Source of the DNA: Arctopsyche grandis
Taxonomy: Eukaryota > Arthropoda > Insecta > Trichoptera > Hydropsychidae
Direction: 5' to 3'
Length of the DNA: 64,000 nucleotides
Assembly: GCF_051622035.1 (NCBI RefSeq)
Contig: NC_135367.1
Coordinates: 13,382,501-13,446,500, forward strand
The notes below the pieces were generated by a model that saw nothing but the letters and a program-made list of their open reading frames with translations, did not search any database and was not told the DNA's origin. The translations under genes were made by a program, and so were the position numbers. Below are positions 43,761 to 48,192 of this stretch, in pieces. How positions within the stretch are numbered: position 1 is the stretch's first letter; each line of letters opens with the position of its first letter.

Positions 43761-44445
43761 AAAATTATTATTTTCATTACAAGCAAAAAAATTTCATTCT
43801 GATTGAGTTAGTGGTCTGGGAGATAATTTAATTCTAAAACTTACTGATCCGTGATCAGTAATCCATTTTCACATGATCACAAAACTTCATCTATTGTTAC
43901 TACGTTCATAGATAAAGTAAAAAGGATGGGACACATGATTAAGAATACTTAAAATTATGCCTAATAGTTTGTGCATGAAAAAACTAGTTTGTTTTCTTGT
44001 GTATACTAAAACTGGGATATTGGTATGTGTATGAACAAACTAGTACGTTCACAAACGAACGAAATTTAAATTTGTATATACAAATATATTATGTCAAGGT
44101 TAATAACAATTCACATATTTTTGATACGTACTATCTACATACATATGTTATTCATCACCGCAATACAAACCGCAAAATATTTTTATTTCAATTTTGGCTC
44201 ATTGAAATATTGTATACTAGCTGTATTACCCGGCTTCGCTCAGTGTTTATAATATAAACCGCTTAAACATGACTAAGCTAATAGTAAACATTTAATTAAA
44301 AAAAAAAAAAATTTAAAATTTTTTTTTTATTTATTTAAAAAAAAAAAAAAAAATAAAAAAAAAATAAAAAAAAAATTAAAAAAAAATTAAAAAAAAAATT
44401 AAAAAAAAAATTAAAAAAAAAAAAAAAAATCAAATTTTTTTTTTT

Positions 44446-45430
44446 GCCTTCTAGGGCTTCGCCCTCGGCGCCCCCCTGAGCCTTTGCCTTCTAGAGCTTC
44501 GCCCCTCCACGCCCCCATGAGCAATTGCCGTTTAGGGCTTCGCCCCCATGATCAGGTGCCTTTTAGGGCTTCGCCCCTCCGCGCCCCCATGATTAAATGC
44601 CGTCTAGGGCTTCGCCCCCCTTAGTTAATGCCTTTTAGGGCTTCGCCCCTCCACGTCCCCATGGTTAATTGCCGTCTAGGGCTTCGCCCCCATTATCAGT
44701 TGCCTTTTAGGGCTTCGCCCCTCCGCGCCCCCATTATTAAATGCCGTTTAGGGCTTCGCCCCCCTTAGCTTATGCCTTTTGGGGCTTCGCCCCTCCGCGC
44801 CCCCATGATTAACTGCCGTTTAGGGCTTCGCCCCCCTTAGCTAATGCCTTTTGGGGCTTCGCCCCTCCGCGCCCTCATGATTAAATGCCGTCTAGGGCTT
44901 CGTCCCCATGATCAGTTGCCGATAAGGGCTTCGCCCCTCCACGTCCCCATGGTTAATTGCCGTCTAGGGCTTCGCCCCCATGATCAGTTGCCTTTTAGGG
45001 CTTCGCCCCTCCGCGTCCCCATGATTAAATGCCGTTTAGGGCTTCGCCCCCCTTAGTAAATGCCTTTTGGGGCTTCGCCCCTCCGCGCCCCCATCATTAA
45101 ATGCCGTCTAAGGCTTCGCCCCCATGATCAGTTGCCTTTTAGGGCTTCGCCCCTCCACGCCCCCATGGTTAAATGCCGTCTAGGGCTTCGCCCCCATGAT
45201 CAGTTGCCTTTTAGGGCTTCGCCCCACCACGCCCCCATGATTAAATGCCGTCTAGGGCTTCGCCCCCCTTAGTTAATGCCTATTAGGGCTTCGCCCCTCC
45301 GCGCCCCCATGATTAATTGCCGTCTAGGGCTTCGCCCCCCTTAGTTAATGCCTTTTAGGGCTTCGCCCCTCCGCGCCCCCATGATTAAATGCCGTCTAGG
45401 GCTTCGCCCCCATGATCAGTCGCCGTTTAG
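44446..45430. repeat. GC-rich tandem array, 72-bp dimer
   Basis: About 13 copies of a 72-bp period made of a 41-bp and a 31-bp half. Each half starts GCCNTNTAGGGCTTCGCCCC. The halves differ by CTCCGCGCCCCCATGATTAA versus CCATGATCAGTT or CCTTAGTTAAT. GGGCTTCGCCC is itself an inverted repeat that could fold. The array gives frames such as MPFGASPLRAPM that look like repeat artefacts. Confidence 0.85.
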
Positions 45431-46010
45431 GGCTTCGCCTCATAAGGCAGCGCCCCATGAGGCTGCCCCCCCCTGCGCCCCCTTCGGGGCCCCATGGGGG
45501 TGCGCCCCCTTGCGCCCCCTTCGGGGCCCCATGCGGCTAAGCTCCATAAGGCGGCGCCCCATAAGGCGGCGCCCCATAAGGCAGCGCCCCATAAGGCTGC
45601 GCCTCATAAGACTGCACCCCATAAGGCTACGCCCCATGAGGCTGCGCCCCCCTGCGCCCCCTTTGGGGCCCAAAGAGGCTGCGCCCCCCTGCGCCCCCTT
45701 CGGGGCCCCATGAGGCTGCGCTCCCCTGCACCCCATGAGGCTGCGCCCCCTTTGGGGCCCCATGGGGCTGCGCCCCATGAGGCTGCACCCCCTTCAGGGC
45801 CCCATGCGGCTAAGCTCCATAAGGCGGCGCCCCATAAGGCGGCGCCCCATAAGGCTGCGCCCCATAAGACTGCGCCCCATAAGGTTGCGCCCCATAAGGC
45901 TGCGGCCGATAAGGCTGAGCCCCATAAAGCTGCGCCCCTTATGGGGCCCCGCCAGGGGCGCCATAAGGGGCGCCATAACACTACTCGCCTTGCGCCCCCG
46001 CGGGGGTGAA
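45431..46010. repeat. GC-rich array, 15-bp and related units
   Basis: Runs of CGCCCCATAAGGCGG (15 bp) and CCCCCTTCGGGGCCCCATG blocks. The larger order is duplicated (about 45530-45640 and 45810-45930). The 15-bp period keeps frames open on both strands (171 codons plus, 146 codons minus), with [14 protein letters not shown] repeats. Confidence 0.85.
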
Positions 46011-48192
46011 TCCATTGAATCGAAAAAAACAAATCGGCGCCCATGGATCGAAAAAAAAAAAAATCGAATCACGTGTTCGATGACGTCACCGATCTACGGA
46101 CGACGACGACGACCAAGGATACATACATACATATATACAAAGTCTCTTTCCAAATTATAGATTAGATGTATGTACTGTGAATTTGAATATTTTTTGTGTA
46201 GAATTCAATTGTTTGGATTACATATTAATATATTGTTAACACGAGAGCTTACATATATTTCAGTGAAACTATTTTGGTTGTAAAAAAAAAAAATAAACCA
46301 TGAAAGCATGATCAGTGATCGATGCTGAGTTCAAAGCTGTCACAATCTCCAATCTCCAAGTCGAATTTTCGCATCATAACTAAACTTAATATACTAATAT
46401 ATTAAATAAAAATATATATTTAATAAAAATATTATAGTCCATCCGCTGTAGGAAGACACTGCTAAAACGGACATGCTGTCCCTTTCACCCCATATCGACC
46501 AATAACATTTGCATGTACAATGTTCCACTGTCTATGTAATTAAATGCTGTTGGTCGAGAGGCGGTGTAAGGGACAGCATGTACGTATTTCCTAAGTATCC
46601 TACGATAGCTGAGTATTAAGTTCCAGGACCTGGACTACTTGAGTGGCCCCTTGACGGGACTTTTGACTGATCGATATTGTTATTTAATATTATTCTACAT
46701 AAAAATACATATATTTCTTTAATGCTAAATGTTTATTATATTTCGATCCGCGCATTCTTCGTGTCCATATGCAATCGTACTTTTTATATCATACTTTATT
46801 ATTAGATTATTTCAAAAAATGGCATTATATATACATATATAGGTATTTTTCTAATAGTTCTGATAGATTTTTCGCATCTTAAAATACATCTATAAGATTT
46901 TTTTTTGGTTTGTCCTAGGGTAAGGAATTATTTATTCCAGGGCCTGGGATTCCTCTTGGCGGCCCTGCCTGCGACGTACGTTTTATCTTTCATAATTATT
47001 AAATAAATTGAATAACGAGAATATTTTGGCTTTGAAAATCTTAATGCAGCCACTGGACATTTCCATAGGAGCGCTGATGATAATTTGCGACCAAAGCAAA
47101 ATTTCACATGAGAACCACTGCTCCATAAATTAAATTGTACGTAGTGTGCCAGTCTCTTCCTTTCCTAATCTTATCCTACCACTTTAGAATCGCTCTAAAA
47201 CCTTTATGAATGTACATAAATACATACATACATATAATACTTCTCCAACATTTCGCAGCATAAATAATATCAGTGACAAAGAGATATGTACCTTATTTTA
47301 TCTAGATGATACATGTAATCGAATCTCGTACTGTATTTCCATTCCTCCGCATTCTTAAACGTCATTAACTTTTGTATTTTATCTGATTTAGGAGAAATGT
47401 ATCCGAACTGCAGAAAACACTATTAATATTTGTGATTCTTAAATGATGGGATTTATACGGGAAAATATTTGTCTTTCTTAAAAAAGCTACATAAATGTTT
47501 AAAATACAACCAATAGATAAAACTTACAAATACCGTTTTCACCGCATGTCCGTTTTGAATACACTTTTTTGATTTTCGATTCTTAAATATATGTAGATAT
47601 ACACAAAGGACTTAGAATATTTTTTAATTAAAAGCATTCCCAATATTCCCAAAGTCAAATGTCAGGGTCTCGTTTTCACTATACCTACATACATATGTAC
47701 ATATAAAAAAATACCTACACAATATAATGGCTTTAGAAATTCTTCAGTGCCCTCGAACGTGGGACCGTTCCAGTTGTCATCTGCATATTTTCACTCTCAG
47801 GAAAATTGTGTCTGGCTAGAGGCACTGGCATGCGTTTATTTCCACTCCAACCTTGCACCATGAAAGCCTCCGTGACCTATTAAATGTTCTACAGCATCGG
47901 AAGAGTCACCCCTCTCACTAACGGAGAGCAACAAGCCGTTGTTGCTCGTGTACATAAATATGTATACACTTTGTAAATACGTATACAACTGGGCCTTTGT
48001 CTGACGAAATGTTTGAAGTTGAATAGTCTATAAATGTATGTATGTATATAACGTATGTAGATAGGCACTGTTTTGTATGCTGGGTTTCGCTTATATAAAG
48101 CAAGAGCAAAGTTTTTCAGTGGCAATGGTTCGATACGTACTCGTATATAGTAAATACATATATGGAGTCAAGTTAATGATCAATAATACATG

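Follow-up and report, generated by a model that had tools for sequence, protein, structure and literature searches.

Results

The window analysed in the current study, a 64-kb stretch of DNA, harbours a family of short elements with common ends, five copies of which had been proposed in an earlier note and were confirmed here at the same positions. Copies A (12355..12549, 195 bp) and B (29046..29244, 199 bp) are located on the plus strand, and copies C (44217..46166), D (52028..52236, 209 bp) and E (54179..54402, 224 bp) on the minus strand; as had been reported, four of them fall within 195-224 bp and copy C, with both ends retained, extends over 1,950 bp. The ends previously described as shared were likewise found, all five copies commencing with 5'-TC and terminating in a GC hairpin, nine further nucleotides, CTAG and, immediately outside the element, a T. 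The TC is preceded by an A in four of the five copies, copy B having a T at this position, and in copy C the 5'-TC at 46166 and the CTAG-3' at 44217 lie in an A|T context. The hairpin (CCG-A-GC-GAA-GC-CGG) comprises 14 nt, including a bulge, and is positioned 9 nt before CTAG in every copy; its pairing is complete in B and, with a GAG loop, in A, C and E each contain one T.G pair, and D contains one mismatch.

Pairwise identity over the 3' 75 bp of the five copies ranges from 84 to 92%, with E being nearest to C (88.0%), and identity among the whole copies A, B, D and E, counted over aligned columns, is 87-91%. A profile of the 3' end recovered all five copies at E-values of 1.8e-23 to 7e-23, which reflect coherence rather than discovery since the profile was made from these same copies. 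A 5' profile made from A, C, D and E identified C, E, D, A and B at 3.6e-10 to 2.4e-6, the matches of A and B lacking the first model positions, and that of A beginning only at 12363. When the last 28 nt were compared to the family consensus, 24-28 of the 28 positions agreed in A to E, 23 in a further copy (F) and 21 in an additional element (G), both of which are described below, the best score elsewhere in the window being 17; across 40 simulated windows, the highest score per window ranged from 16 to 21. DNA fold prediction for B, C and D returned the hairpin in B (-2.7 kcal/mol), a variant in D (-1.3) and none in C (-0.5), and 43, 181 and 92 of 200 shuffles folded at least as well as the termini of B, C and D, respectively. 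Joining the flanks of each of the five copies gave sequences that matched only themselves within the window. The combination of TC, hairpin, CTAG and A|T context supports, on structural grounds, the previous assignment to Helitrons, and on this sequence evidence the copies would be non-autonomous members. At 38940-38960 the 3' module was also matched weakly and in part (E 0.14), possibly by a decayed copy.

Beyond the five listed copies, the window holds a sixth family member (F) and a Helitron-like element (G), the 3' tetranucleotides of which (CTAT and TTAG, respectively) are one base off. Copy F (5821 to about 6756, plus strand) was recovered by the 5' profile at an E-value of 5.8e-6, has a degenerate 3' end and is split by an insert of approximately 760 bp. 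This insert is likely another mobile element since near-identical 11-mers (10/11) flank it, namely TTATATTACAA (5944-5954) and TTATATCACAA (6716-6726). It contains GGTTCGATTCC (6308-6318), which we take to resemble a tRNA B box motif, and is possibly a SINE-type insertion; an ARAGORN scan (bacterial code) of the window, including this insert, returned no tRNA.

Element G (28880..29044, minus strand; 165 bp, 69% GC) reads 5'-TCCGG...GCGAAGCTGGGTTAAACCATTAG-3', possesses A|T flanks and either adjoins the 5' end of copy B or is contained in it. A terminus score equal to that of G was reached anywhere in only one of the 40 simulated windows, and by profile alone G is weak (E 0.24). For the body of G (28903-29045) aligned to the GC-rich part of C, the element strand outscored 498 of 500 shuffles and the opposite strand 496, and we regard this sequence match to the array as marginal. 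The 3' end of copy B is firm, and its 5' end is uncertain because of the short length, the T in the 5' flank and the adjoining G. If 28880-29045 is excised and the flanks are joined, the resulting sequence aligns over the junction with D, A, E and C, by reason of which G may lie inside the 5' end of B; the stretch is AT-rich and the point is not pressed.

Concerning the internal organisation of copy C, its element-strand order is 5' module, GC-rich part, AT-only tract and 3' module, all on the minus strand of the window. The 5' module (46015..46166, 152 bp) consists of a conserved start of approximately 50 nt followed by short GTAT/GTC microsatellites and a GATTCG(T)n motif that is shared with E. 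The GC-rich part (44446-46014; 1,569 bp, GC fraction 0.634) is made up of a first sub-array with linker (45443..46014), built on the 15-bp unit GCAGCCTTATGGGGC and 37-bp variants, and a second sub-array (44446..45442) of 13 pairs of 31- and 41-bp units (72 bp per pair) plus edge units. An AT-only tract (44297..44445, GC fraction 0.007) then takes the place that the AT-rich body has in the other copies, and the 3' module (44217..44296) carries the terminal hairpin ACTGAGCGAAGCCGGGT and CTAG. Copy C minus its GC-rich part aligns with E through the motif CGATTCAA, after which the GC-rich part starts (the boundary in this alignment being set by choice at CGATTCAA), and the array is therefore an insertion relative to E. 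In this single copy it is enclosed by the 5' and 3' ends of the same element; it was not seen in A, B, D, E or F, and C is the only array-bearing copy visible in the 64-kb window. No clear target-site duplication was found around the GC-rich part, the longest shared word being poly-T; shorter words, which are unlisted, may be hidden.

Two candidate explanations of the GC-rich part were rejected. A retroposed insert with a poly(A) tail would require the A/T tract to be at the opposite edge of the array, whichever strand is read, and a gene is not indicated by the 182-aa frame at 45461-46009, which is kept open by the 15-bp repeat and had no Pfam match; the Pfam test covered this one of the five frames over the array.

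Tandem Repeats Finder (TRF) reported a period of 15 at 45526-45938 and a period of 37 at 45452-45538 and 45631-45734. In the 72-bp sub-array, 13 31-mers and 13 41-mers alternate strictly, flanked by the edge units, and identity by lag is 0.872 at 72, 0.854 at 144, 0.899 at 216 and 0.895 at 288, a pattern which fits unequal exchange or slippage. The 31-mers have two spacer types and a mean identity of 0.823, compared with 0.918 for the 41-mers. Departures from the consensus amount to 5 positions in the first 31-mer and likewise 5 in the last 41-mer; divergence at the edges is only partial as the first 41-mer is identical to the consensus. The similarity score between the 15/37-bp sub-array and the 72-bp sub-array was matched by 12 of 300 shuffles. 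With respect to folding, 134 and 116 of 200 shuffles (for the two strands) were predicted to fold at least as well as the array unit, and with the DNA parameters used no unusual folding stability was detected for this unit or for the termini of B, C and D. Neither GGCTTCGCC nor its complement has a further site in the 64 kb outside the array. Other tandem repeats in the window comprise two AT-rich arrays (14384-15026 and 15522-15867) about 0.5 kb apart, the consensus units of which look reverse-complementary around a AGGGTAACCAGCCTTTTTTTATACA motif, and a perfect (AT) dinucleotide run of 281 bp (60894-61174; 140.5 copies, 100% match).

The earlier note had considered the GC-rich repeats to be utterly unlike the AT-rich body of the family, which holds for composition, but the hairpin of the array, whose unit contains GGGCGAAGCCC, shares both the apex GCGAAGC and the strand of the family's terminal hairpin. 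This heptamer occurs 28 times on the element strand of C (27 in the array, all within 44446..45442, and one at the terminus) and not once on the opposite strand, and at 21 places in the array it forms part of GCGAAGCCCTAR, in which the hairpin runs into CTAR. Outside C, six occurrences were counted in the window against 1.69 expected, four of which fall in the terminal hairpins of B, D, E and G; copies A and F are without the exact heptamer. Mononucleotide shuffling of the 72-mer unit generated GCGAAGC in 1,365 of 100,000 cases (1.4%). In the array CTAR overlaps the stem end, unlike the terminus with its 9-nt gap.

Similarity past this hairpin core was sought by aligning termini to the array. 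The consensus terminus scored no better against the two unit types than 419 and 967 of 5,000 dinucleotide shuffles, and the terminus of C itself no better than 1,978 and 2,572 of 5,000, and homology of unit and terminus beyond the core was thus not supported. The 15-bp array gave 610 and 740 of 1,000 shuffles scoring as well, and the body of G 395 and 123 of 1,000, the consensus terminus scoring higher on the opposite strand of G.

Searches for a partner and for relatives were also undertaken. A Pfam scan of 20 of the 27 open reading frames of at least 110 aa in the window identified no Rep or helicase domain and two reverse transcriptase hits: a 608-aa frame at 48274-50100 on the minus strand (RVT_1, 8.3e-34), which gives the impression of being RTE-type, and one of three scanned frames (RVT_1, 3e-16) among broken retrotransposon-like frames at 22363-23941 on the plus strand. 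Exact-pattern searches returned no match for the 3' module of C or for the terminus in prokaryotic and viral contig collections, nor for the array in viral contigs, results which mean little because the collections are prokaryotic or viral and the patterns exact. An Rfam scan of the window yielded no hit.

Discussion

Based on the findings of this study, copy C probably represents a non-autonomous Helitron that contains a tandem array, whatever the origin of that array. This assignment is supported by the order of 5' module, microsatellite, array and 3' module, which matches that of described array-bearing Helitrons and Helentrons, and is further favoured by the ends and their A|T context, the coherence of the 3' and 5' ends within the family, the alignment to array-free E, the strict alternation of 31- and 41-mers and the presence of a second GC-rich element, G. 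It is weakened by the visibility of one array copy only, the failure to find a Rep or helicase domain among the 20 frames scanned, folding that is no better than that of shuffles, the partial nature of the edge divergence and the marginal match of G, which is almost as good on the opposite strand.

Helentrons and HINEs target T|T sites, and the family described here was viewed for the A|T context only. DINE-TR1 of Drosophila, reportedly described by Dias in 2015, is said to be a Helitron-type element whose internal tandem repeats are connected with satellite DNA and, going by description rather than by sequence, is a different element from copy C. Helitrons that combine a central satellite array with a microsatellite and conserved end modules constitute a recognised class in the literature (PMC8268682, PMC7492417; review PMC12628747), and the Helitron-like elements of Crassostrea gigas are reported to carry conserved left and right modules, a microsatellite on the 5' side, a central tandem array and a 3' palindrome (PMC8268682, PMC7492417). 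Copy C has this layout in common with the oyster Cg_HINE, Helitron-N families and Cg170/HindIII, and it is reported that two arrays can occur in one element and that HINEs carry subterminal inverted repeats (PMC7492417). In contrast to the oyster DNA/Helitron satellites, which are 57-76% AT among the rows seen (PMC8268682), the array of C is 63% GC and contains short hairpins. The small insect Helitrons Hel-2 and Csup_Hel1 are described as non-autonomous elements of about 160-260 bp with TC/CTRR ends and a 3' hairpin, Hel-2 being flanked by A and T and carrying inside it a variable (CTGT)n microsatellite; compared by description, they resemble the present family in size, ends and hairpin, but the portions of these descriptions at hand mention no long GC-rich array. 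The canonical Helitron criterion is given as a 16-20 bp palindrome near the 3' end, able to form a hairpin (PMC6544945), beside which may be set the bulged 14-nt hairpin of the family, positioned 9 nt before CTAG as compared to the 11 nt given for Helraiser (PMC4778049).

As regards the origin of the array, we tentatively favour, at slightly below an even chance, its expansion from a seed lying in the element itself. Copy C would thus represent one insertion of a small non-autonomous Helitron, presumably moved in trans, via rolling-circle transposition, by a RepHel protein encoded elsewhere, with the GC-rich minisatellite held between the 5' module and the AT tract. The seed would most likely have been an internal hairpin sequence, short and GC-rich, which may have expanded as ordinary tandem repeats do, through slippage or unequal exchange, and the array, if already there at transposition, would have been copied as passive cargo.

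The foremost alternative, which we judge to be less likely, is that a host GC-rich minisatellite unrelated to the family was taken up by, or inserted into, one Helitron copy, a history that is compatible with a Helitron carrying an array and contrary to an internal seed. It accords with the array-free copies in the window and with reports that Helitrons capture host tandem repeats (PMC12628747, PMC8268682), but GGCTTCGCC and its complement were located at no other place in the 64 kb, G provides a second case of GC-rich DNA with a family-like 3' end, and the GC-rich part is bordered by no clear target-site duplication among the words listed, of which poly-T was the longest, although a shorter one may be hidden.

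It is unlikely, though equally compatible with the class, that the units are amplified and degenerated versions of the element's own 3' hairpin, acting as internal decoys that could cause copying to end early or late. The confinement of all 27 array heptamers to the strand of the terminator, their recurrence in the terminal hairpins of B, D, E and G, and the 21 places at which the hairpin runs into CTAR, set against the rarity of the heptamer in shuffled units, are consistent with this proposal, as is the report that the 3' hairpin of Helraiser functions as a terminator, the loss of which raises read-through and truncation (PMC4778049). Against it, since similarity stops at the hairpin core (419-2,572 of 5,000 shuffles align as well), an origin of the array from the terminator is unsupported, the 15-bp array and the body of G are without signal, CTAR overlaps the stem end rather than lying 9 nt beyond, and A and F lack the exact heptamer. 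Moreover, tandem copies stem from one event, and the strand agreement alone is therefore a 1-in-2 coincidence, while the apex may be convergent because hairpins with GNA loops are unusually stable, d(GCGAAGC) being reported as a very stable DNA mini-hairpin with a Tm of up to 78 C (PMC4686876). The fuller version, namely that some 27 internal decoy terminators were multiplied from the 3' hairpin, most of them running into CTAR and all on the strand of the true terminator, with G as a product ending in such DNA, is marginally more doubtful again. The REP/RAYT hairpins provide an analogy only, RAYT being a bacterial transposase of another class. Two bacterial REPs are reported to contain or resemble the GCGAAGC tip, in short repeated hairpins beside a tetranucleotide (PMC2817692).

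That the ends of C are remnants of two Helitrons recombined across an unrelated array, a scenario put forward for those oyster arrays that an element box borders on just one side (PMC8268682), is highly improbable, as each end is complete, the two are correctly ordered on one strand and meet where E has no array, and the A|T flanks fit a single insertion.

The preferred reading, a non-autonomous Helitron bearing an array between its ends, fits a published architecture, to which copy C adds a GC-rich array of hairpins with the tip of the terminator. This common GCGAAGC apex is possibly a new detail, no title or abstract opening listed by the literature searches having dealt with an array of terminator hairpins in a Helitron. 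Provided that G is genuine, the 64 kb contain two instances of GC-rich hairpin DNA next to a 3' end of the family type. Among the sources proposed for satellite DNA are Helitrons that bear arrays, which would also provide a means of scattering it. If the hairpins derive from the terminator, the birth of the array would be tied to the end step of rolling-circle copying, and read-through and truncation of Helitrons would be open to study in natural copies; should the internal hairpins indeed act as decoys, the element would represent a natural test of where a rolling-circle transposase stops.
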